Positions 2,978 through 37,864 of a stretch of DNA of 49,906 nt are shown one piece after another. Position 1 is the first letter of the stretch, and every line of letters starts with the position of its first letter. The notes under the pieces were generated by a model, which worked only from the letters and a program-made list of their open reading frames with translations, ran no database searches and was not told where the DNA came from. The position numbers were made by a program, and so were the translations under genes. Source of the DNA: a virus. Location of the stretch: positions 1-49,906 of the IMG/VR virus record IMGVR_UViG_3300035564_000090. The stretch is one strand, 5' to 3'.

Positions 2978-3349
2978 CTATTTTCTCATTATAAATCCAA
3001 GGCATTTATCAGCCGACTTTTCACCGGAATCTAAAAACTTTTCCGCGTAATTGCAGTCAAGAACACTTTGCTTACAATCTCTACAACCCAAAAAGATTCC
3101 TGCAACCCCAACAGCTCCATTTTCGCTTAAACTAATTGATGTCAATTCTATAAAGTCAATAACTTTTTGCTCTACATAATTCTGCAATTTACAGTCAGAA
3201 TGTATTTCGGTTCCTTTAATTGTATAATGTTCTTTGTTATTTAATTCAAAAATTGTGCAAAATAGCTCCTCTGCCATAGGGGAACAAAAAATACAATTCC
3301 CGCATTCAGTAATTTTAATTGTTTCATCTTTTAAAATAATTTGTTTCAT
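2978..3349 (-). CDS. Cys-rich hypothetical protein
   Basis: 123 residues with Cys at CGNCIFC near residues 16-22, then C31, and later CRDCKQSVLDC. The spacing suggests metal binding, possibly a Zn or Fe-S site, but no family is recognised. An SD-like AGAGGAG lies upstream of the ATG. It is the first gene after a GC-rich hairpin at 3368-3385. Confidence 0.6.
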   Translation of the reverse strand: MKQIILKDETIKITECGNCIFCSPMAEELFCTIFELNNKEHYTIKGTEIHSDCKLQNYVEQKVIDFIELTSISLSENGAVGVAGIFLGCRDCKQSVLDCNYAEKFLDSGEKSADKCLGFIMRK

Positions 3350-3367: not shown

Positions 3368-3385
3368 GCCCGGGTTTCCCCGGGC
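3368..3385 (-). terminator. GC-rich intergenic hairpin with GAAA loop
   Basis: Perfect 7-bp stem GCCCGGG/CCCGGGC with a 4-nt loop that reads GAAA on the minus strand, followed by ACTTTT. It lies between the SbcDC stop (3400) and the next start (3349). It could be a weak terminator or an mRNA-stabilising hairpin. Confidence 0.55.
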
Positions 3386-9999: not shown

Positions 10000-10418
10000 G
10001 GTTTTATCTTTTTCATAGCATCGATTAGGTTATTAAGCAATAGGGTTAATGCCGGGCTTGCCAATAATGCAAGCAAGAAAATTTTAGGTGTTAGCTTTTT
10101 ATCATCTATAGCCTTCACGATTGATTCTCTGAAAGATGTTAAATCATATCTGATGCTTTCTATTTTTTCTGTTATCTCATTTTTAAACCTGTTAAAAATC
10201 TCTTCAAGTTTTTCTACTCTGGAATTGCTATGAGTGATTTCTTTTTCGATTAAACATACTTTTTTGTCAAGATTGGCATATTCTGCCTGTATAATATGAA
10301 TTTCTTTATCTCTTATATCTATGGAAGCTAAAATATTTTTTATGTTTTCATTAAGCGGGTCTATGTGCGCTTTTATAATTTGCGATAGTGTTTCAAAATC
10401 CTTGTTTTCCATTTCCAT
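9996..10418 (-). CDS. Coiled-coil protein with C-terminal membrane anchor
   Basis: 140 residues. A long coiled coil at about 10-105 is followed by a hydrophobic helix (FLLALLASPALTLLL) near 113-128. SD-like AAAGGTAAC precedes the ATG. Tail-anchored, possibly lysis-related or a membrane adaptor. The 3' end overlaps the convergent gene by 4 nt. Confidence 0.6.
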   Translation of the reverse strand: MEMENKDFETLSQIIKAHIDPLNENIKNILASIDIRDKEIHIIQAEYANLDKKVCLIEKEITHSNSRVEKLEEIFNRFKNEITEKIESIRYDLTSFRESIVKAIDDKKLTPKIFLLALLASPALTLLLNNLIDAMKKIKP

Positions 10419-10908
10419 TGTTACCTTTCAATCGTTTCTTAATTTCATATTCTAGTAATAGTTTATACACTGTATAGCTTCCGATGTATAGTACGATCGT
10501 TCCGATAAATGAAAAAATATTGTAATGATGGAATATGAAATTGATGGCAGTTAATGCACAAAGTAAAAAAACTAAAATAGCTTCTGCATAAAAATTATTA
10601 AAAAGGACAATTGAAAAAAGGATAAAAAAAATTGCAATCGGATTATCATATTTACAAAGATAAGCACAAGATAATCCGGCAGCTGCATATAGATAAGCAT
10701 ATCCAATGCAAGTGCGAAAAGTGATACTAATAATAGCAATTATCAACAAAATCACAAGGGATGTAATCTCAATTGCAGTAATTGAATTGTAATCGTAAAT
10801 AGTAAGAGCGTGAAAAATATTTAATAAAACAAGGGCGGACAAAATAAAAATGTTTACAATCCCCGCCACTTTAAGCAAACTAAATCGCTTTTTTACAATC
10901 GGTTTCAT
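10393..10908 (-). CDS. Polytopic membrane protein
   Basis: 171 residues with about five or six hydrophobic helices and a basic C-terminus. It overlaps both neighbours (26 and 29 nt). No family is recognised; an envelope or superinfection-exclusion role is possible. Confidence 0.6.
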   Translation of the reverse strand: MKPIVKKRFSLLKVAGIVNIFILSALVLLNIFHALTIYDYNSITAIEITSLVILLIIAIISITFRTCIGYAYLYAAAGLSCAYLCKYDNPIAIFFILFSIVLFNNFYAEAILVFLLCALTAINFIFHHYNIFSFIGTIVLYIGSYTVYKLLLEYEIKKRLKGNNGNGKQGF

Positions 10909-11323
10909 CAGGTTCGGTTTGCTCTTCCCAATTCCATACTTCAGTAGAATCTTTGATCAATTCCTGCTCAAGGGATGTCAATTTGTATTCTGTAGATTTC
11001 AATTGTTTATGGCAACTTTTACGTTCAATGACAAGCATCCCTTTTTCAGATAAATTTTCAGTATGATGCTTTATTCTATGATTAAGAATTATAATTTGTG
11101 CTACAATTATTTTTTGCATAAGAATCAATTTATTATCTACCCCGAAAAAATTAGGAAATGCCATTATTGCCCTGTCAAGTGATGGCATAACACCTGGTAA
11201 AAAATTACTGTCCGATAGTTCACGGTCAATAATCATGCAGGACATAACATAGTTTGTATTTGGATATTTTGCGCCCATTTCCAGTAAAGATTCAGATATC
11301 CAGCTTTTTAACTTTTCTATCAT
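10880..11323 (-). CDS. Hypothetical protein, 147 aa
   Basis: TAGGAG precedes the ATG at 11323. Predicted largely helical with an amphipathic middle and an acidic C-terminus. It is first of a three-gene block with the membrane proteins downstream. No motif is recognised. Confidence 0.6.
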   Translation of the reverse strand: MIEKLKSWISESLLEMGAKYPNTNYVMSCMIIDRELSDSNFLPGVMPSLDRAIMAFPNFFGVDNKLILMQKIIVAQIIILNHRIKHHTENLSEKGMLVIERKSCHKQLKSTEYKLTSLEQELIKDSTEVWNWEEQTEPDETDCKKAI

Positions 11324-11374
11324 TTTATTACTCCTATTTATTATATATCACATACTTGATACAATTACAACTAT

Positions 11375-11407
11375 TTTAAAAAGAGCCGGGCGCAGGGTAC
11401 CCGGCTT
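11375..11407 (-). terminator. Rho-independent terminator
   Basis: Stem AGCCGGG (11384-11390) / CCCGGCT (11400-11406) with a 9-nt loop, followed on the minus strand by CTTTTT. It lies downstream of the C39-like peptidase gene. Confidence 0.8.
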
Positions 11408-11448
11408 ACGTTGGAGATAGCATTGAGATATGATATATGGAAAAAAAT

Positions 11449-12093
11449 CTATTCATATAATCTTTTTTTCGTAATCAAGATTTGATATGAATCGATTTTT
11501 ATTTCTTCCATTTTACCACGCATATCAGGATTTTTTAATAATGTTCTATTTGTGAGTTGTACATAACTTTTATTGTACCCATCACCTGAATTGTAATTAG
11601 GCGGATATGAATCATTGATGATCAAGATACTATTATCTTCATATCCACACACAAGCACATAATGCCCGGAAAGAGTAAAATTTCCACAGATGATTACAGT
11701 ATTGCCCCGATCTATTTCTTGTTTTATTTTTTCAAAACTATTCCAACCATAGCGAAAAATTGTGGAATATTCACCAAATATTTTATTTATGATATACGTA
11801 ATTAATTGCGGGAATTCATAGGGTGGCGTTGTATTCTTAAAAATTTGCAAAAAGTCTATCTGAACATTTCTAACTTTTTGCAAGTATTCAGAATATTCAG
11901 GCCAGTTGCTTTCGGTCATAGCGATTGCAGTTAATTTGTCTTCTGGCTGCTTTTCAGTTCCTGGAATTTTAGATAAATCATATCCACAAATAGAAAGCCC
12001 GCCAACTGCCGATGTAAACCCACAGGTAAGCAAGGGATATTTTGCATTGTTTGTCTGTATGTAATAATCCTTTTCACGTGTTCCTAATATCAT
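11449..12093 (-). CDS. C39-like cysteine peptidase, possible endolysin
   Basis: 214 residues with the papain-like layout of Peptidase_C39_2: Cys24 in LLTCGFTSA, His in SGHYVLVCGYED near 145, and Asp/Asn in ILIINDSYPP near 158. In phages this fold can serve as a cell-wall peptidase, and no other lysin is visible here, so an endolysin role is inferred. No signal peptide or wall-binding domain is seen. GGAGGCG precedes the ATG. A strong terminator follows the gene. Confidence 0.65.
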   Translation of the reverse strand: MILGTREKDYYIQTNNAKYPLLTCGFTSAVGGLSICGYDLSKIPGTEKQPEDKLTAIAMTESNWPEYSEYLQKVRNVQIDFLQIFKNTTPPYEFPQLITYIINKIFGEYSTIFRYGWNSFEKIKQEIDRGNTVIICGNFTLSGHYVLVCGYEDNSILIINDSYPPNYNSGDGYNKSYVQLTNRTLLKNPDMRGKMEEIKIDSYQILITKKRLYE

Positions 12094-12489
12094 CTAGGCG
12101 CCTCCATTTGCAAATTCTTCACCGGTAAGAAAAAGGTAAAGTCCAGGTAATCTTTGTGGTTTATCCTTATTCCATTTTTTCTTCGCTGCTTTTTCGGCAT
12201 TGGTAGCTTCATATAGAAGCCTATCAAGATCACAAGTGTCTATTTCCCATTGATATTCCAAGCCGTAGCTTTTTCCGTGACATGCCCACACTTCAAAAAG
12301 ACTACCATGCTTTTCAAAAAGTACAAAAGACCCGCTCCTGCTTCCATCTTTTCCATACCAAGCGTATAGTATAGTTACATTTTTTGACTCTTTTCTGGAA
12401 ATTCTGAATTCATCAAACACGGATTCTTGATCTACGAACTCACCGAAAAATATTGGAATTTGCGCAATTAATTCGGCTTCTGTTTTCAT
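12094..12489 (-). CDS. Hypothetical protein, 131 aa
   Basis: Aromatic-rich, mixed alpha/beta (YAWYGKDGSRSGSFVLFEKHG), with no recognised motif. The ATG overlaps the upstream stop as ATGA, and its stop lies directly before the peptidase ATG, so the genes are co-translated. Confidence 0.6.
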   Translation of the reverse strand: MKTEAELIAQIPIFFGEFVDQESVFDEFRISRKESKNVTILYAWYGKDGSRSGSFVLFEKHGSLFEVWACHGKSYGLEYQWEIDTCDLDRLLYEATNAEKAAKKKWNKDKPQRLPGLYLFLTGEEFANGGA

Positions 12490-12791
12490 TTACCCTTTTT
12501 GCCCTTTTGATGTTGGTCTGGCTTTTCAATGCGCGCCTGCGGTGCAGGTTGTTCCAATATTTCAGGAACAACCGAATTTTCTAAATTTTCCCTTACGCCT
12601 TCAGTTACTGGGTTTTCATTTTCTGTTGGCGCTGGTTGATCTTCTATCAATTTCAAATCACTTTTTGCACATCTGAAATGTGTCCATATGTGATCTTCTG
12701 CAATTCTACGTGCTTCATCTTCATTCCCTGCATTGACATCCAATTCCTTAATTGTACCATCAGACAGTTTGTAACTAAATTTATATTCCAT
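12486..12791 (-). CDS. Hypothetical protein, 101 aa
   Basis: The N-terminal ~60 residues look like a small alpha/beta domain (YKLSDGTIKELDVNAGNEDEARRIA). A Pro/Glu-rich linker and a Lys-rich tail (KGKKGK) follow. GGGGGGAAT precedes the ATG. Function is unknown. Confidence 0.6.
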   Translation of the reverse strand: MEYKFSYKLSDGTIKELDVNAGNEDEARRIAEDHIWTHFRCAKSDLKLIEDQPAPTENENPVTEGVRENLENSVVPEILEQPAPQARIEKPDQHQKGKKGK

Positions 12792-12811
12792 ATTCCCCCC
12801 TTAAAAATATA

Positions 12812-13084
12812 CTAACCTTTTCGGCCATTTTTGTAAAGCGTTTTTGTTGTTGTTTTCGCTTGTCTTGTTTTATATTGTTTTTCAGTTTTTGGTTGTCTTC
12901 CACGGGGCTTGATATTGTTTTTAAGAATTGTAACCCCTTTTTCAGTGATAAAATAACGTCTATCTTTAATAAAAATGTCTTTTCCACCTACATCATTTTC
13001 GGTTATGTTTTGACAATTTTTTTGTGCTGTCATATAACAACATCCCGCAAGTGCAGCGGCTTCTTTCAGTGTATATGTTTTCAT
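12812..13084 (-). CDS. Small HTH DNA-binding protein
   Basis: ATG at 13084 is chosen because of the preceding GGAAAG; the frame extends up to 13165 without an RBS. 90 residues: YTLKEAAALAGCCYMTAQKNC fits an excisionase/MerR-like HTH, then RRYFITEKG and a basic tail with PRGRQPK. The protein at 15841-16053 has the same order of elements, so the two are probably paralogues. Likely a transcription regulator. Confidence 0.65.
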   Translation of the reverse strand: MKTYTLKEAAALAGCCYMTAQKNCQNITENDVGGKDIFIKDRRYFITEKGVTILKNNIKPRGRQPKTEKQYKTRQAKTTTKTLYKNGRKG

Positions 13085-13155
13085 TAGCTTTCCTTTTTTA
13101 AACCTGCTTACGGCAACTCCGGGTAGGTCAACAAAATTATTATTACTATTCCAAA

Positions 13156-13184
13156 TATATAGCAAATAAAAAATATTTATTCAA
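13156..13184 (-). promoter_or_regulatory. Promoter for the 13084 gene
   Basis: TTGAAT (13179-13184), 17-nt spacer, TATATA (13156-13161) on the minus strand. The ~65-nt leader contains CCCGGAGTTGCCG, like the CCGG hairpins elsewhere in the window. Confidence 0.6.
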
Positions 13185-13192
13185 GTAAATAT

Positions 13193-13363
13193 TTATTGAA
13201 TTAAACCAAAATTAAATATTTTTTGGTTTTTCTTAATCGGCTCTATTTTTTCAGGATTAAAACATGCAAAGCAGCTTGTGCAAAAAGTCATTATAAGAGT
13301 ATTTCCATATTTCATGCGTATTGTATTATTAGAGCCGCATTTTTTACAAGATTGCTTTTTCAC
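13193..13363 (-). CDS. Small zinc-ribbon protein
   Basis: GTG at 13363 preceded by GGGGATAAT. 56 residues with CKKCG at 6-10 and CTSCFAC at about 28-34, a four-Cys zinc ribbon. It follows the exonuclease stop by 10 nt. Function is unknown. Confidence 0.65.
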   Translation of the reverse strand: MKKQSCKKCGSNNTIRMKYGNTLIMTFCTSCFACFNPEKIEPIKKNQKIFNFGLIQ

Positions 13364-13373
13364 ATTATCCCCA

Positions 13374-13991
13374 CTATTCCAAAAGCCCTAACAGTTTTAT
13401 AAGGCATTGCGCAGTAATTTCACAATCATACGCCACACCGTGCGCAAGCGATTCGTTAAATGTAACGCCTAACGTTTGCGCAATAGTTTTAAGGTTTCGG
13501 GATTCTGTATAGGGAATCTTTCCAATAACCTGTTGGGCTGAAAATAAAGCGAGCGTATCTATCAAGTTTCCCGATTGAAAAAATGACCAGGGATATTTAT
13601 CCCCCGCTTGTTCCCATAATTTTAACAAAAAAGGAATATCAAAACCTACGTTATGTCCACATAACACAAAACGTTGGATTTTATCTTTGCTAAATGGGTC
13701 AACATAACAGGCTAAATGCGTTCGTATTTCTTTTTGAACAATGTTAAGCGCTGGAAATGTTTTTATTTGATCTTTGCTATAGCCATTAACGGCTAACTCC
13801 TGTTCGCTAAACTCTACGTTACCAGGATTCATTTTGAATGACTTAACGGGGGACTCACTATTTATGCGTTTAAAATTATCATGAAAACTTGTCGCTTTTA
13901 AAGTAATTATTTTAAAAGCAATTTCAATAATACCACATTTAGAAACATCTAAACCTGTCGTTTCTGTATCAAAAACCAATAACCTTATCAT
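13374..13991 (-). CDS. DnaQ-like DEDDh 3'-5' exonuclease
   Basis: 205 residues with all three Exo motifs: DTETTG (7-12), CGHNVGFD near 112, and HGVAYDCE near 183. This is the epsilon-subunit family of single-strand 3'-5' exonucleases. No polymerase gene is visible, so it may act with a host polymerase or in recombination. AAAGGAAAAACA precedes the ATG. Confidence 0.9.
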   Translation of the reverse strand: MIRLLVFDTETTGLDVSKCGIIEIAFKIITLKATSFHDNFKRINSESPVKSFKMNPGNVEFSEQELAVNGYSKDQIKTFPALNIVQKEIRTHLACYVDPFSKDKIQRFVLCGHNVGFDIPFLLKLWEQAGDKYPWSFFQSGNLIDTLALFSAQQVIGKIPYTESRNLKTIAQTLGVTFNESLAHGVAYDCEITAQCLIKLLGLLE

Positions 13992-14020
13992 TGTTTTTCC
14001 TTTATAAATTTACATAAGAT

Positions 14021-14079
14021 TTGCACACGTGGGAGTCGAACCCACCGTATATATCACGATCGCCTATAGAAGTGTGCAA
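14021..14079 (-). ncRNA. D-arm-less tRNA-like element (acceptor plus T-arm)
   Basis: The minus strand folds into an 8-bp acceptor TTGCACAC/GTGTGCAA and a perfect 5-bp T-arm GTGGG-TTCGACT-CCCAC with a canonical T-loop. Only 26 nt connect the acceptor to the T-arm, too few for both a D-arm and an anticodon arm, and no convincing anticodon stem is seen. It is either a tRNA remnant or a functional tRNA mimic. The acceptor resembles that of the element at 15046. Confidence 0.6.
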
Positions 14080-14126
14080 CATAAATCAACCGTAAAAATA
14101 AACAAACACCAGTTATTCGACAGAGA

Positions 14127-14444
14127 TCAGTAATACTTCATGGACGGTGTAAATATCGGTGCTGGTGGTGTCGGTAGCGCTGGTGTGTTATAACTACTGG
14201 GTGGCTGGGGCGTAACAATGCTTACCGTGCAGTACGGATCACAACACCAGTATAGCAGGTACCCTTCGGAAGTTGTGGTCTTTGTGACCACTACATAGGA
14301 TACCCCTCCGTCATACGATGCGATCGTGGTTTGCGTTTTTTCTCCGGATGGATTTGTTACTGTTGAATCCGAAACAATGATCGTCTGCGCCATGATAGAC
14401 GCAGAAAACAAAATTAAAAAAAGTGTAATAAATAGTTTTTTCAC
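14127..14444 (-). CDS. Secreted Pro/Thr-rich small protein
   Basis: GTG at 14444 with AGGAGG 8 nt upstream. Residues 1-19 are a classical signal peptide ending SIMA|Q. The mature ~85 residues contain many Ser/Thr, two Cys (WCCDPYC) and a Pro-rich tail. It is probably exported and may alter the cell surface. A mobile element is inserted only ~18 nt upstream of its RBS region. Confidence 0.65.
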   Translation of the reverse strand: MKKLFITLFLILFSASIMAQTIIVSDSTVTNPSGEKTQTTIASYDGGVSYVVVTKTTTSEGYLLYWCCDPYCTVSIVTPQPPSSYNTPALPTPPAPIFTPSMKYY

Positions 14445-14469
14445 AGAAAAACCTCCTAAATATTTTTGT

Positions 14470-14767
14470 GGCTCTTCTCCATTTCGTGTGGATGAATTTT
14501 ATCTTAAAATATCAATAATACTGCATAAAAATCATGCTCTGCTAACTTTTTATCTCTTTTAAATTACGATACAGATAAAGCATGTAATCTATTAATCGAA
14601 TAAAGTCCCCAAATATATCTGGATTCATTATCTCAAAATGCCAAAAATATTTTGAAGGTAGCAAATTATGCTGAATTATAGGTATTGAAAAGCAATAATA
14701 CTTATCACCCCCCTCCTAAACATCAAGAAAGTGCCAAAATTATACCCACACGAAATGGAGAAGAGCC
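14470..14767. mobile_element. 298-bp ISL3-like MITE
   Basis: Perfect 22-bp terminal inverted repeats (14470-14491 and 14746-14767, starting GGCTCTTCTCC) are flanked by a perfect 8-bp direct repeat ATTTTTGT (14462-14469 and 14768-14775). ISL3-family insertion sequences make 8-bp duplications and have GG-starting ends of this kind. At 298 bp there is no room for a transposase, so this is a non-autonomous element moved in trans. The intact repeats imply recent insertion. Confidence 0.88.
14542..14723 (-). pseudogene. Possible frameshifted small ORF inside the MITE
   Basis: A frame open for ~57 codons ends at the TAG at 14542-14544. It would join an upstream ATG (14723) if the G6 run at 14708-14713 gained one base. 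The unshifted reading has only a 28-residue ORF from ATG 14628 (MNPDIFGDFIRL). It may be a remnant of a gene or chance. Confidence 0.25.
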
Positions 14768-14773
14768 ATTTTT

Positions 14774-14916
14774 GTAGGAATATTCCTACACTCACATCAA
14801 AATAAAAAGGCGGCGGGTTGATGTGTGCCGCCTGCCATCCTACACTATGGCAGTAGGCGCGCTTATGGAATCAAAATATACCCTATCAAAATAACCGGTG
14901 AATATCCACCGGTTAT
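14774..14916. other. Chain of four hairpins without a gene
   Basis: Successive inverted repeats: GTAGGAATATTCCTAC (14774-14789); GGCGGC/GCCGCC (14809-14832); CTGCCAT/ATGGCAG (14832-14853); ATAACCGGTG/CACCGGTTAT (14891-14916). The stretch 14776-15045 has no convincing gene. The hairpins could be terminators, RNA processing sites or protein-binding sites. Confidence 0.6.
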
Positions 14917-15045
14917 GATCTGTGGTTTTTCCCAGCACTTGATCAGTATGGCCAAATTAGCGACCACTCGCATCCCGTGATTTCGATACCGCCGTCTGTT
15001 TCGCACGGTTCAGCAGAAAAAATTTATAACGCGGTCTAAAAAATA

Positions 15046-15107
15046 CTGCACGCTCCGGAATCGAACCGGACAGCCTTATGCGCATAAGGCGCAATCCATG
15101 GCGTGCA
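15046..15107 (-). ncRNA. Second D-arm-less tRNA-like element
   Basis: Minus strand: perfect 7-bp acceptor TGCACGC/GCGTGCA plus discriminator G, and a perfect T-arm TCCGG-TTCGATT-CCGGA. The 30-nt connector holds one strong hairpin (GCCTTATGCGCATAAGGC) instead of D and anticodon arms. A T-run follows the 3' end. Acceptor differences from the 14021 element are compensatory (A-T versus G-C), suggesting the fold is kept. Confidence 0.6.
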
Positions 15108-15136
15108 ACCCCATACTGCGCAATGGGTTCGATGTG

Positions 15137-15218
15137 TGCCCGATAAGGGAGTCGAACCCTTATTAGCAGGAACAAAACCTGGAAAATACCTGTCGTTCTA
15201 CCGTTAGACTAATCGGGC
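15137..15218 (-). tRNA. tRNA-Gln(TTG)-like with an 11-nt insertion
   Basis: Acceptor GCCCGAT/ATCGGGC, D-arm region GTCTAACGGTAGAAC, T-arm AAGGG-TTCGACT-CCCTT and discriminator A are all present. The anticodon arm reads CAGG-TTTTGTT-CCTG (anticodon TTG) but is preceded by an extra ~11 nt with a duplicated CAGG (ACAGGTATTTTCCAGG). Position 37 is T rather than a purine. It may be a decaying or interrupted tRNA. CCA is not encoded. Confidence 0.6.
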
Positions 15219-15237
15219 ATAATCCCCCCCCGGTCAG

Positions 15238-15768
15238 TTATTCGCAGTCATTCTCCATGCCAACCAGGTCAAGCAACTCTTGTCCGGTATACTTTGTGCC
15301 CTGGTCTCCAATAAAAGATACTTCATCGGGGTTTGAAAATCCAGGGCACTCCCTGACTTGATCAAGCAAGTCCTCATAAGTATATGAGGTACCAGAGGGA
15401 TCATCGATCATGGAGAATATCTCTTTGACTTCAGAGTTTGTTTTTTGATCTTCTGTTATCCAGGCGTACGCCATTTCTGGCGTTATCCCCAATGATTCGC
15501 TTTCGTCTCCAATAACCTCGGTAATTTGTTGTAACGTTTTTCCTGTGTGATACTTTTTAAAACATTGTTTTTTCTCTTCAATCAAGACGCTAATATTTTT
15601 AACCGCTGTTTTTGGTACCCATGCCTGAAATTCACCATCGGATATCAGCAGCGCTTTTTCTGTTTCCTTGATTGTTGTGAATGTCGTGTCTTTTGACAAA
15701 GAGCATGTAATTTTTTTTGCTGCCCAACCGGATATTTCTATTAAGTTTCCGTCTAATTTTGTTCTCAT
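15238..15768 (-). CDS. Hypothetical protein, 176 aa
   Basis: ATG 15768 is preceded by GGGAGGTTAAA. The frame extends to 15813, but that start lies before the predicted transcription start. Acidic; residues about 40-60 look beta-rich, and helices follow (TYEDLLDQVREC, YTGQELLDLVG). Driven by the P3 promoter. Function is unknown. Confidence 0.65.
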   Translation of the reverse strand: MRTKLDGNLIEISGWAAKKITCSLSKDTTFTTIKETEKALLISDGEFQAWVPKTAVKNISVLIEEKKQCFKKYHTGKTLQQITEVIGDESESLGITPEMAYAWITEDQKTNSEVKEIFSMIDDPSGTSYTYEDLLDQVRECPGFSNPDEVSFIGDQGTKYTGQELLDLVGMENDCE

Positions 15769-15802
15769 TTTAACCTCCCAAGGTTGCTGATTTGTTTTAA
15801 TC

Positions 15803-15845
15803 AGCTTATACATATAATATACATCTTATACGGTAATAAGTCAAG
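15803..15845 (-). promoter_or_regulatory. Promoter P3, inverted copy of the 43-bp promoter
   Basis: TTGACT (15839-15844), 17-nt spacer, TATATT (15816-15821) on the minus strand. All 43 nt are identical to 16194-16236 in the other orientation. The transcript start (~15809) is followed by a 7-bp hairpin GCTGATT/AATCAGC. The stop codon of the HTH gene lies inside the -35 box. Confidence 0.85.
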
Positions 15846-16053
15846 CGTTTTTTTCATAATATTTTATTTTTTTTCCAGGCTTTCCATTAGTACGCTTTTT
15901 TTCCATTATAGTACATAATCGTGAAAACTCTTTTTTTGTCAAAAACCGTCTATTACTGATAAGCATTCCGATTTCCTGGATACGTGCGGTTTGTTTCAGC
16001 GTTTCGTAGCTGTATGGACTGGCAGCAGCCAGCGTAATTAATGGTGTCCTCAT
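15841..16053 (-). CDS. Small HTH regulator bracketed by twin promoters
   Basis: 70 residues: LAAASPYSYETLKQTARIQE resembles an HTH, then NRRFLTKKEFSRL and a basic tail (NGKPGKK). The element order matches the 13084 gene product. AGGAG lies 9 nt before the ATG. It has its own promoter over a 14-bp palindrome. Two identical outward promoters flank it, so it is the natural candidate regulator of both. That role is inferred. Confidence 0.65.
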   Translation of the reverse strand: MRTPLITLAAASPYSYETLKQTARIQEIGMLISNRRFLTKKEFSRLCTIMEKKRTNGKPGKKIKYYEKNA

Positions 16054-16072
16054 ATATGTATGTACTCCTGAC

Positions 16073-16104
16073 TATAGTATACTATACTACGTACATATAG
16101 TCAA
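16073..16104 (-). promoter_or_regulatory. Promoter and palindromic operator of the HTH gene
   Basis: TTGACT (16099-16104), 17-nt spacer, TATACT (16076-16081) on the minus strand. The -10 box is covered by the perfect palindrome TATAGTATACTATA (16073-16086), a likely operator for autoregulation. Confidence 0.8.
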
Positions 16105-16193
16105 TACCGGAAAAGATTTTAATTTTGAGTATATAATAGAAGATTTCAGACAAATCATAAAATATTAAAATAAAAATATTTTTGTAAAAAATA

Positions 16194-16236
16194 CTTGACT
16201 TATTACCGTATAAGATGTATATTATATGTATAAGCT
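16194..16236 (+). promoter_or_regulatory. Promoter P2 of the small-protein operon
   Basis: TTGACT (16195-16200), 17-nt spacer, TATATT (16218-16223). It is identical to P3 over 43 nt. The leader then forms GCTAAT/ATTAGC, the same hairpin position as after P3 with a compensated base-pair difference. Confidence 0.85.
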
Positions 16237-16273
16237 AATGAAAAAGATTAGCAAAACTTTAGGGGGAGTTAAT

Positions 16274-16516
16274 ATGAAGAATTTAAATATAAACAATGCT
16301 ACGGAACTTGGTTTGGATAAAATGGGGATAGGTCATTATCCATCTTCCATAACAATAGAAAATGTAGAAGACGATAACCAGCTCATGCAGGTAATAGAAA
16401 AGTTTCATACTTTTAATGAAAATTTAAGAGCAAGTGAATACATAGAAGAGGAATCACAACTTTTGATAAACTTACAATATTTTTTAGGTCAAAGCTGGAC
16501 TAAAATAACGGCTTAA
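16274..16516 (+). CDS. Hypothetical protein, first gene of the P2 operon
   Basis: ATG 16274 follows GGGGGAG. An in-frame ATG at 16226 precedes the predicted transcript start, so it is rejected. 80 residues, acidic, mixed alpha/beta. No motif is recognised. Confidence 0.6.
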   Translation: MKNLNINNATELGLDKMGIGHYPSSITIENVEDDNQLMQVIEKFHTFNENLRASEYIEEESQLLINLQYFLGQSWTKITA

Positions 16517-16527
16517 AAATAATCTTT

Positions 16528-16560
16528 ACCCGGAGCTTGACCGGACAACAGGCAAAGGGG
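16528..16560 (+). repeat. CCGG intergenic hairpin element, copy A
   Basis: ACCCGGAGCTTGACCGG followed by ACAACAGGCAAAGGGG, just after a stop codon and ending in the next RBS. Nearly identical to copy D at 17391. Confidence 0.75.
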
Positions 16561-16565
16561 ATAAT

Positions 16566-16805
16566 ATGAGAGTTACAAAATATTGCGAAGACTGCGGGCA
16601 TGAAACAACCGGAGTTCCAACGCATGAGGAAACCGCAGCGGATGAGAAGTTTTGTCCTGACTGTGGAGGGCGGTTCATGGACGAGGAAGAGCGTGAAAAA
16701 AGACATATGTTACGCAGCGAACACCTGGAAGAAGAACGCTTTGAGGATGATGAAGAATGTAGAGAATTTCTAAAAAATCCTACATTCCCAGCGTTCGGGA
16801 AATAA
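16566..16805 (+). CDS. Zinc-ribbon protein with acidic tail
   Basis: 79 residues: CEDC at about 7-10 and CPDC at about 31-34 form a zinc ribbon, followed by a Glu-rich helical region. The RBS AAGGGG lies at the end of CCGG element A. It may be a transcription or RNA-binding adaptor. Function is unknown. Confidence 0.7.
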   Translation: MRVTKYCEDCGHETTGVPTHEETAADEKFCPDCGGRFMDEEEREKRHMLRSEHLEEERFEDDEECREFLKNPTFPAFGK

Positions 16806-16810
16806 TCAAA

Positions 16811-16826
16811 ACCGGAACTTGCCGGT
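16811..16826 (+). repeat. CCGG intergenic hairpin element, copy B
   Basis: ACCGG-AACTTG-CCGGT, a perfect 5-bp stem with 6-nt loop, 6 nt after the zinc-ribbon stop. Confidence 0.65.
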
Positions 16827-16883
16827 CTGTCAGGGATAGCCTCCTGGCACTGAAGATGATAGGCTGAAAGAGGAGAAAAGGAA

Positions 16884-17162
16884 ATGAAAACGAAACTACA
16901 AATATTTATAATAGCAAGGAAAATTGTAATCGATGAACAAAAAAGTCAAGATGTGCCAGTACACAATGTGGCCATCAACGCTATAAAAGAAATCAATAAC
17001 GCACAGAGAAAAGAACACGCAATACATAAATTTATCGATAATTGGCAAGGGCAATCCAATGTGTATTGGAGCAGCTTTGAAAAATGTTCGGATACATCCA
17101 CGCAGGATCATGCTTTTAATTGTCCTACGTGCAGGATGCAAGATTTTCTCGATAATATTTAA
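16884..17162 (+). CDS. Hypothetical protein with C-terminal Cys cluster
   Basis: 92 residues. GAGGAGAAAAGG precedes the ATG. Helical N-terminal region; Cys at FEKCSD and FNCPTCRMQ suggest a small metal site. No family is recognised. Confidence 0.6.
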   Translation: MKTKLQIFIIARKIVIDEQKSQDVPVHNVAINAIKEINNAQRKEHAIHKFIDNWQGQSNVYWSSFEKCSDTSTQDHAFNCPTCRMQDFLDNI

Positions 17163-17168
17163 TCACTA

Positions 17169-17185
17169 CCCGGCGCACTGCCGGG
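17169..17185 (+). repeat. CCGG intergenic hairpin element, copy C
   Basis: CCCGGC-GCACT-GCCGGG, a perfect 6-bp stem with 5-nt loop, shortly after the stop codon of the previous gene. It is followed by a long leader to the next RBS. Confidence 0.65.
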
Positions 17186-17253
17186 AATGGGCGCAATGTC
17201 TACCTCCTCGCGGTGTGCCCGGATAACCAACTAACAGACAGAAGGGGATAAGT

Positions 17254-17385
17254 ATGGACAATGCTTTTAAAGAAAAAGAAATCAAAAAAGATATGGGAAA
17301 TATTACCATTGAAACAATATCGGAATTAGCTGTATCAGCCATTGCAATTGCAAGCGCGATTATACTTGCTGTTATGCTGCTATAG
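17254..17385 (+). CDS. Tail-anchored membrane miniprotein (43 aa)
   Basis: ATG 17254 with AAGGGG upstream. Residues 1-22 are charged, 23-43 a single hydrophobic helix (VSAIAIASAIILAVMLL). It could regulate a membrane target or be a small toxin-like peptide. Confidence 0.6.
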   Translation: MDNAFKEKEIKKDMGNITIETISELAVSAIAIASAIILAVMLL

Positions 17386-17390
17386 CAACT

Positions 17391-17420
17391 ACCGGAGCCT
17401 GGCCGGACAACAGGCAAAAG
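17391..17420 (+). repeat. CCGG intergenic hairpin element, copy D
   Basis: ACCGGAGCCTGGCCGG then ACAACAGGCAAAAG, matching copy A at nearly every position including the RBS spacing. Confidence 0.75.
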
Positions 17421-17428
17421 GATATAAT

Positions 17429-17683
17429 ATGGATAGAGAGCTATTAAAAAATATTAAAGAATATTACGAAAAAGAAATTGATCGTATGAAGGAAGCGGCT
17501 GAAGAATACGCGCAGCATAGTGTTGATGCTATGCGATTTGAAAGTGTTTTGGAAAAATCCAGAAATTTTTATGAGACATATAATTGCAATCTGGCTGGGA
17601 GAATGGAAGCCGCTATAAAATTTATCCCTGATCAGATAGAACTATTGCAATTAAAGGAGGATAATAATGAAAAGCTGGGATAA
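17429..17683 (+). CDS. Helical hypothetical protein
   Basis: ATG 17429 after AAAAGGATATAAT; the frame is open further upstream but without an RBS. 84 residues, charged coiled-coil-like helices. The end overlaps the next gene by 17 nt. Confidence 0.6.
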   Translation: MDRELLKNIKEYYEKEIDRMKEAAEEYAQHSVDAMRFESVLEKSRNFYETYNCNLAGRMEAAIKFIPDQIELLQLKEDNNEKLG

Positions 17684-17978
17684 TGAATTTTATAAACTAA
17701 TTGAGCAATTTGAAAAAGACAACAGCAAAACGGGGATTAGACTGGATAGATGTAAAAGCCATGGCGAAGATGCCTTTTTTGAAAGCGGAGAAACTGAAAA
17801 ATTATTTAAAACCTACATGCAGGGGTATTCTTTTGCGAAGTGCAAATTTGAAATATCCAATCTTAATAATCCTAACAGCATACATACAAAAATAGATAAA
17901 TCAGGGCTATTGTCGGAACTTGCAAAAATATCCCAGATAATAATTGATAAATATATACCGTATAACAGTGATCTGTAA
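17667..17978 (+). CDS. Hypothetical protein, last gene of the P2 operon
   Basis: GGAGG lies 8 nt before the ATG. 103 residues, soluble, mixed helices. No motif is recognised. A hairpin follows. Confidence 0.6.
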   Translation: MKSWDNEFYKLIEQFEKDNSKTGIRLDRCKSHGEDAFFESGETEKLFKTYMQGYSFAKCKFEISNLNNPNSIHTKIDKSGLLSELAKISQIIIDKYIPYNSDL

Positions 17979-17983
17979 AAACA

Positions 17984-18012
17984 CCCTGGGTAGTTATACG
18001 GTACTCCCAGGG
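17984..18012. terminator. Hairpin between convergent operons
   Basis: CCCTGGG (17984-17990) / CCCAGGG (18006-18012). It has no long T-run but lies exactly between the plus operon end and the minus-strand genes. Confidence 0.5.
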
Positions 18013-18065
18013 CACTAATACAAAACTTAATCTATTATATGGAAGCCCCCTTTTCGTAAAATATT

Positions 18066-18242
18066 TTAAGCATCAACGATGCTACGATTACTTTTATATT
18101 GTATTTCTTTCTCTGTTTTATGAGCATATCTGCAAAACCAACAGGTTATTATATTAAGACTATATGGCCATAGATTGATAATAAAAAGCCTTTTATTTGA
18201 TTCCAAAATAGCACCACATTTTTTACAAATAGCAATACTCAT
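18066..18242 (-). CDS. Small zinc-ribbon protein
   Basis: ATG 18242, 58 residues. CKKCG at 6-10 and CWFC near 34-37 make a four-Cys ribbon. It follows the ASCH gene by 5 nt. Function is unknown. Confidence 0.65.
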   Translation of the reverse strand: MSIAICKKCGAILESNKRLFIINLWPYSLNIITCWFCRYAHKTEKEIQYKSNRSIVDA

Positions 18243-18247
18243 AATTT

Positions 18248-18589
18248 TTATTCCTTTATATATTCAAACTCAATCCGATTAACGATCACATAACAAGTGC
18301 ATTTGTTGAAGCGCATAAAAAAATCAATAAACCATTCCCTGCTTTTTCCCGGGAATCCCTCGCGCCTTACATCTTCGTCGGTAATTTCAAAAAGTCTTTC
18401 TTTCCTAACAGATATCACGCGAATGATTTTTAAACGCTTTATCCTTTCGCCTTTCTTTAATCCTTGGCATTTTTCAACAGCGCAAAGCAAATCACCGGGC
18501 TTAAGTTTCCACCAACCAAGGCGTCTGGTGACTGTTTTTGTTTCATCAATAATCTGTTGTATCGTTTTAAAGAACGACATATTTTGCAT
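18248..18589 (-). CDS. ASCH-domain protein
   Basis: 113 residues. The ASCH pattern is visible: ETKTVTRRLGWWKLKPGDLL, then a beta strand (RLKIIRVISVR), ITDEDVRREGFPG and a final strand (VNRIEFEYI). The PUA-like fold is predicted to bind RNA. Short single-domain ASCH proteins are common in phages; their role is not established. Confidence 0.8.
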   Translation of the reverse strand: MQNMSFFKTIQQIIDETKTVTRRLGWWKLKPGDLLCAVEKCQGLKKGERIKRLKIIRVISVRKERLFEITDEDVRREGFPGKSREWFIDFFMRFNKCTCYVIVNRIEFEYIKE

Positions 18590-18593
18590 TTTA

Positions 18594-18965
18594 TTATCCT
18601 ATTACCATATGTACACCATTAATTATTTCAAGATCATTTTCTGTGCAGGTTATGCCGGCAGCATTTAATTTTGCTAAAAAATTTGGTATTTTTTTAATTG
18701 CATAAACATATTTTTTTTCAGTTATCAACAATACATAGCAAATAGTATCAGATAAGGAATTCCCTATTCCCTTTATATTAAGAAGAAGATCAAAACGATT
18801 AAAAAAATCACAAAGCATGTCATATTTATTATAATCATTATGATCGTCTTTTTCTTCCATTTCTTCTAATACTGTTTTTAAATATTCATCAAAACCTATT
18901 TTACATAACATATCCTCTGTTAATCTAATACCAATTCCGCATTCAGATTTCAAATGTAAGATCAT
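18594..18965 (-). CDS. Hypothetical protein, 123 aa
   Basis: Helical, with an acidic middle (EEMEEKDDHNDY) and several Cys. GAGGAG precedes the ATG. The 147-nt gap upstream carries one copy of the 47-bp repeat. No motif is recognised. Confidence 0.6.
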   Translation of the reverse strand: MILHLKSECGIGIRLTEDMLCKIGFDEYLKTVLEEMEEKDDHNDYNKYDMLCDFFNRFDLLLNIKGIGNSLSDTICYVLLITEKKYVYAIKKIPNFLAKLNAAGITCTENDLEIINGVHMVIG

Positions 18966-19040
18966 TTATTTATCTCCTCTTATTTGTGTTTAAACAATTT
19001 ATAACATCGTGAAGTTGTTAGCTCTTCTGGATTAAAAACA

Positions 19041-37341: not shown

Positions 37342-37800
37342 TTACCAATTACCGTCTGCCATTTTCTTATTATTGCCAAGATCGTATACGGAATAATTAT
37401 TGACCTTTGCTTTTGTCGGGTCACCCAGCACACAGCCTGCTGTTATCGAAGCTGTGGGGGTCGTGCCTCCTGTAAATGTGAGCACGCATTTAATTCTTAT
37501 GTAACGTTTGGCATTAATCAAATTAAGGTAAAGTTTGCTTGCTGTGCTTGCCGCTGCAATTGTAAAAGTGACATTTGATAATACAGCTTCGTCACTCATA
37601 TTTGAAGCACTGCCGTGACAAATTGTAAAAACCGCACTAACAGTGTCCGGGGTGCCTGTTAGAACGCCGACATAGGCATTCATAAGGGCTGACATATAAT
37701 CCAAACGGTCTATTGTCTCCCCGGTTAAAGTGGCAGCCAGAGAAGCGGTAGGCTTGATGCTTGTTATATAATCAACTCTTTGTAACATATCCATTTTCAT
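37342..37800 (-). CDS. Probable capsid decoration/virion protein
   Basis: 152 residues between capsid and connector genes. Beta-rich, Thr/Ala-rich; spot where decoration proteins occur. No motif recognised, so the role rests on position. GAGGAG precedes the ATG. Confidence 0.55.
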   Translation of the reverse strand: MKMDMLQRVDYITSIKPTASLAATLTGETIDRLDYMSALMNAYVGVLTGTPDTVSAVFTICHGSASNMSDEAVLSNVTFTIAAASTASKLYLNLINAKRYIRIKCVLTFTGGTTPTASITAGCVLGDPTKAKVNNYSVYDLGNNKKMADGNW

Positions 37801-37826
37801 AATTATTTCTCCTCTTGTTATTTATT

Positions 37827-37844
37827 CCCCGGGTATTCCCCGGG
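37827..37844 (-). terminator. GC-rich hairpin downstream of capsid gene
   Basis: CCCGGG repeated around a GAATA/TATTC spacer (11-nt direct repeat CCCGGGGAATA on the minus strand). It may dampen readthrough or protect the abundant capsid mRNA. Confidence 0.5.
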
Positions 37845-37864
37845 AAAACATAAAAAATTAAAAA

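Follow-up and report, generated by a model that had tools for sequence, protein, structure and literature searches.

Twin outward promoters with leader hairpins in an unclassified tailed phage: a candidate lambda-like early switch

In the phage DNA described here, the same 43-bp promoter is present in two exact, inverted copies around a single small gene, and each copy is followed by a short leader with a hairpin close to the predicted 5' end of the RNA. The analysed stretch, referred to as the window, spans one complete IMG/VR virus record (49,906 bases), which is listed as linear. With moderate confidence, we regard the arrangement as a lambda-like early switch, in which duplicated promoter-leader cassettes drive two outward operons under shared control and the hairpin acts as a stabiliser. 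The region would then govern early gene expression in an unclassified tailed phage, with the left copy of the cassette firing into a replication and recombination operon and the right, inverted copy into a short operon of small genes. An unchanged sequence of 43 bp could keep both promoters equally strong and accessible to the same regulator, for which the 70-aa protein encoded between them is the likeliest candidate; this protein may also control its own promoter. Both operons would be fired on entry and afterwards shut or tuned through one protein, according to the lambda plan, while the hairpin at +5 most likely shields both mRNA 5' ends from decay and leaves the ribosome-binding region accessible.

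The two copies of CTTGACTTATTACCGTATAAGATGTATATTATATGTATAAGCT are identical at all 43 positions, the left one at 15803-15845 on the minus strand and the right one at 16194-16236 on the plus strand, and the window holds no third copy at up to three mismatches (chance expectation 0.00). Each contains a sigma-70-type TTGACT-17-TATATT. For the left promoter the -35 box (TTGACT) lies at 15839-15844, the -10 box (TATATT) at 15816-15821 and the predicted +1 at about 15809; the corresponding positions of the right promoter are 16195-16200, 16218-16223 and about 16230. The +1 positions are predicted rather than mapped, being placed seven bases past the -10 box. Both promoters face outward, and the preliminary description, which had reported one promoter at these two places pointing away from the 70-aa gene, is confirmed on either point. 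Two in-frame ATGs at 16226 and 15813 (MYKL...) were rejected as start codons, as they lie at about -4, ahead of the predicted +1.

The identity starts one base upstream of the -35 box and ends three bases inside the leader hairpin, and it is embedded in a wider inverted repeat of 78 nt at 86%. Upstream of the copies an A-rich sequence is common to both (13 of the 20 nearest bases). Past the 43 bp, the leaders can be aligned as far as the start codon, with 26 of 36 aligned positions identical and five gap columns. The duplicated unit is therefore a promoter-leader cassette. A generic promoter scan in this A+T-rich region found 42 sites, against 39.5 expected in shuffles, and the case consequently rests on exact duplication instead of on a consensus match. 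In an architecture control of 1.36 Mb, mostly phages with a related capsid or RecT, no other outward pair reached at least 30 identities in 45 positions; the pair of the present window scored 43/45.

RNA polymerase does not read the 17-nt spacer between the two boxes closely and needs no fixed sequence there. Nevertheless, the spacer is identical at 17 of 17 positions, whereas the leaders agree at 26 of 36 (P about 0.004 at leader identity). An unchanged spacer next to drifted leaders is the strongest hint of shared regulation, which we draw from the sequence, although gene conversion would look alike. The spacer contains a partial dyad, CTTATTACCGTATAAG, at 15825-15840 (minus) and 16199-16214 (plus), which is a candidate operator; within the window, CTTAT-N6-ATAAG occurs only at the two promoter copies.

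The identity of the 43 bp could also reflect recent duplication or gene conversion, and an inverted promoter duplication of recent date, without shared regulation, would simply provide two equal constitutive early promoters. Identical sequence is what would be expected of a young duplicate, and the 70-aa protein has neither known relatives nor a proven role. However, the leaders have diverged, indels included, while the spacer has stayed unchanged, which points to selection or gene conversion acting on the promoter, and we consider such an unregulated pair unlikely.

The product of the gene enclosed by the promoters, at 15841-16053 on the minus strand, is a putative DNA-binding protein of MerR/excisionase-like type. 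The gene ends with a TGA codon within the left -35 box, and its mRNA should therefore run into the left operon. Upstream of the gene, at 16065-16104 (minus), a promoter-like TTGACT-17-TATACT (boxes 16104-16076) and the sequence AGGAG (16065-16069) precede the ATG. The preliminary description had given this gene a promoter of its own over a 14-bp palindrome. The promoter indeed overlaps, with its -10 box, the palindrome TATAGTATACTATA at 16073-16086, yet perfect palindromes of this length occur 14 times in the window, which makes it unremarkable by itself. A 9-mer, TATATGTAY, is present in all three promoters, with four of its six window copies in this region; they include TATATGTAC at 16091-16099 (minus), the motif common to the outward promoters, and an inverted second copy, TATATGTAT, over the start of the 70-aa ORF at 16053-16061 (plus). 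The sharing is not significant, two clusters with common 8-mers being found in 13% of dinucleotide shuffles, and the motif can be taken only as a suggestive hint of a shared regulator.

The same description had called the gene an HTH gene, and for this the profile libraries offer no backing. Pfam, PHROGs and NCBIfam gave no match, neither to MerR or excisionase family profiles nor to a CI/Cro-type repressor, the nearest being one PHROG of unknown function at E 0.18. Searches of viral contigs, phage records and GTDB genomes found no relative of the protein, and plasmids gave just two chance-level matches (E 4). The codon statistics of the ORF are weaker than those of most of its neighbours. A structural model, made from an alignment with ORF 12812-13084, has helices at residues 5-11, 16-23, 28-32 and 40-55 with a pLDDT of 55. 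Its PDB matches are insignificant (E >3), and several of them are CarH, NmlR (both MerR-family), RacA and the GIsul2 excisionase. From this low-confidence model, a winged HTH of the MerR/excisionase-like type is plausible. ORF 12812-13084 (minus) is itself a small protein with a similar layout and 27% identity, possibly a related excisionase-like HTH. Of the earlier proposal that one regulator controls two operons, two outward promoters with a common control sequence remain the natural reading (spacer identical, leaders 26/36); the part assigned to the 70-aa protein, which has no homologue, we infer from its position.

The first gene of the left operon (15238-15768, minus; 176 aa) and that of the right operon (16274-16516, plus; 80 aa) are both without known relatives, and are preceded by the Shine-Dalgarno sequences GGGAGG at 15774-15779 (minus) and AGGGGGAG at 16261-16268 (plus), respectively. 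Further genes of the left operon encode a DNA polymerase III-type exonuclease, a RecT annealing protein, an SbcCD-like metallophosphoesterase/ATPase and a methyltransferase; the SbcCD label is based on a metallophosphoesterase match together with our own reading of the sequence. The predicted functions of this operon are those of early replication and recombination. The right operon comprises a short series of small genes and extends to about 17978. The proteins scanned included neither an integrase nor a CI-type repressor, and a lysogeny switch is therefore not supported. The phage as a whole is an orphan, its capsid protein having a best match of about 35% in viral contigs, with mosaic matches to phages of Firmicutes, Fusobacterium and Campylobacterota.

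Both predicted transcripts start with AUAAGCU and enter a stem at about +5. The left leader hairpin, GCTGATT-AAAACA-AATCAGC, lies at 15786-15805 (minus; -8.6 kcal/mol) and the right one, GCTAAT-GAAAAAG-ATTAGC, at 16234-16252 (plus; -5.8 kcal/mol). In dinucleotide shuffles, a perfect stem of at least 6 bp anchored at that place arose with P 0.00055 on the left and 0.0023 on the right; since the chance is low for each, the two together are not due to chance. The motif GCTRAT...ATYAGC is found nowhere else in the window. Between the stems there is one compensatory pair, G-C to A-U. The left stem has a seventh pair that is absent from the right, and the loops are unlike in length and sequence. The preliminary description had noted hairpins at the same offset with a base change matched on the other side, GCTGATT/AATCAGC versus GCTAAT/ATTAGC, and this observation holds up beyond shuffles. 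The covariation is real, yet it is a single event between two copies within one genome. The further suggestion of a conserved 5' RNA element is consequently borne out only in part: the hairpins are better than chance, but their conservation is that between these two copies. Alignment of the leaders with MAFFT gave no consensus fold and Rfam no credible match at the hairpins. An RNAalifold z of -11 was set aside, as the alignment had been made by hand to fit the structure. A weak second hairpin that covers the Shine-Dalgarno sequence is possible in either leader, without reaching significance (450/2000 and 75/2000 shuffles).

A symmetric base change keeps a palindrome in DNA just as it keeps a stem in RNA, and the GCTRAT...ATYAGC dyads might thus be DNA operators just past +1, where a bound repressor would block both promoters. 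The position, about +5 to +24, is typical of a repressor site, and the window holds exactly two of these dyads, one per outward promoter. On the other hand, the half-site spacing is unequal (7 and 8 nt), which is seldom tolerated by DNA-binding dimers, although this argument is a mild one; moreover, the promoter of the 70-aa gene has no such dyad and the surrounding 43 bp are more strictly kept than the dyad. For these reasons a role as operator is improbable, though not negligibly so.

When structure was compared across 36 upstream regions of this phage, both leaders, whose folded segments also included promoter bases, were among the most structured. Unrelated, G+C-rich hairpins rank with them, located before the genes at 2978-3349 (z -3.8) and 37342-37800 (z -3.1). 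The former, GCCCGGG-GAAA-CCCGGGC at 3368-3385 (minus), lies between a weak promoter-like site and the ribosome-binding site of gene 2978-3349, where the order of -10 box, hairpin, ACTTTTAGAGGAG and ATG matches the anatomy of the leaders. Perfect G+C-rich hairpins at 3368-3385 and in the intergenic region 37801-37864 (minus) stand directly before ribosome-binding sites in a genome of 36% G+C. Since hairpins of differing sequence are found at the same place, a structural, sequence-independent role such as protection of the mRNA 5' end is favoured. The simplest reading, by analogy, is that the leader hairpin most likely acts as an mRNA 5'-end stabiliser.

That similar hairpins of other sequence occur before internal genes also speaks against the idea that the leaders carry a polymerase-modifying antitermination RNA of the HK022 put or lambda nut type, with which both operons would be read through terminators. 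As in HK022, the same RNA element begins both early transcripts (PMC9378689), and the first hairpin is followed by a weak second one. However, the element is one stem of 19-20 nt instead of a two-stem structure of 70 nt, the second hairpin lacks significance and is entangled with the Shine-Dalgarno sequence, no boxA was seen by eye, and terminator-like sites in 10000-19000 are not enriched (5 found, 5.4 expected in shuffles). Antitermination is therefore very unlikely. There is an even slimmer chance that the twin leaders belong to a hitherto undescribed and very short kind of cis-acting RNA, one that acts on RNA polymerase or on the translation of both early operons together and has been selected despite drift. 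The least probable explanation is that the inverted repeat is primarily a feature of recombination or of a mobile element (an invertible segment or terminal repeats) with secondary promoter content: perfect 43-bp inverted repeats around a single small gene can recombine, but no target-site duplication was seen at the ends, the segment has no invertase or transposase, the homology extends across the leaders as far as Shine-Dalgarno sites and start codons at the correct spacing, and inversion would leave both outward promoters unchanged.

Most gene junctions of the right operon contain structured RNA, including a hammerhead-like element and paired pseudoknot cassettes. The best supported junction RNA resembles a type II hammerhead and is located between two genes at 16804-16868 (plus). 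It scores 31.2 bits, with an Rfam cut-off of 37 (E 0.018 for the whole window, 3.4e-4 locally), and has the GUC site, stems I and III, the CUGAAGA sequence and a 5-bp pseudoknot between loop I (AGCCU) and the 3' tail (AGGCU), an interaction described for type II hammerheads (PMC3088659). In the core, AAAA replaces GAAA, and stem II lacks its closing pair; the element may therefore be inactive. Two junction cassettes of the form CCGGAGCYUGRCCGGACAACAGGCAAARGG, 90% identical, at 16530-16559 and 17392-17421 (plus), precede the Shine-Dalgarno sequences of ORFs 16566 and 17429. Both can form an H-type pseudoknot (CCGG:CCGG with GCYUG:CAGGC), and neither has an Rfam match. The junction before ORF 17254, at 17160-17262 (plus), is strongly structured (-31.9 kcal/mol) and includes CCUCCUCGC. 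Its resemblance to the HDV ribozyme (fold near 17187) is weak (18.1 bits, Rfam E 6.4) and was missed by a descriptor of canonical geometry, and we make no claim of such a ribozyme. On the left side, tRNA-like remnants occur at 15041-15113 (minus) and about 14000-14040 (minus), near a tRNA-Gly (15136-15218). Their acceptor and T arms look intact, and ARAGORN called neither of them; the anticodon arm of the one at 15041-15113 is a 7-bp stem with a 4-nt loop (GCCTTAT-GCGC-ATAAGGC).

Exact promoter scans of viral contigs, scans of GTDB genomes, and searches that used the terminase, the capsid protein, the first left gene and the 70-aa protein as queries all failed to yield a relative that has this early region. 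The capsid profile gave 42 loci (about 30% identity), and RecT, the 70-aa protein and the promoter were absent from the 28 records searched, many of which are fragments. At 51 loci found with a RecT profile, the tested proteins of the left and right operons were absent, except for methyltransferase homologues in some.

If confirmed, the region would amount to a lambda-like switch of compact form, in which a tiny regulator serves two identical outputs, and to a simple test bed for the balancing of two operons by one operator sequence. It would also be a case of a 5' mRNA hairpin that evolves through paired changes, and a first functional foothold in a phage group without characterised relatives. 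The underlying principle and the ingredients are known; it is the exactness and compactness of the arrangement that are unusual.

Several known systems can be compared with it. In cluster K mycobacteriophages, the SAS/ESAS elements include inverted repeats with a variable spacer just upstream of the Shine-Dalgarno-like sequence of several genes (PMC3203893). They differ from the present hairpins in sequence and host group, and the 17-bp repeats of ESAS follow one consensus, while the hairpins found here vary by gene. The 5'-terminal stabilising stem-loop of the ompA type (Emory, Bouvet and Belasco 1992, cited in PMC2777011), which acts to prolong mRNA half-life, is similar in that it lies a few nucleotides from the 5' end and is followed by the region of the ribosome-binding site; in this phage the stem-loop is at +5 from a predicted, not mapped, start. 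HK022 has two related put RNAs of about 70 nt downstream of PL and PR, with putL just past the promoter, and resembles our leaders, as does lambda nut, in having related RNA structures near the start of both early transcripts (PMC9378689). Put RNA, which counters pausing and termination with no need of a protein factor, consists of two long stems and is bound to RNA polymerase, in contrast to the single 6-7-bp stem beside a ribosome-binding site seen here; no put-type two-stem RNA of about 70 nt was found in the leaders, which have one significant hairpin of 19-20 nt.

The closest parallel is the lambda arrangement PL/OL - rexAB/cI - OR/PR, with two outward early promoters that share an operator sequence, a regulator gene between them that has its own leftward promoter, and recombination genes on the left. 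The lambda PL and PR regions agree over 33 nt at 79%, the longest identical run being 12, and are about 2.4 kb apart, whereas the twin promoters match more tightly, at 43 of 43 positions, and are separated by about 350 bp. The gene between them encodes 70 aa and is not a recognisable CI homologue, and no tripartite operator was seen. The layout that defines the lambda type, outward promoters with matching control sequence around a putative regulator gene, is nonetheless found in this phage.
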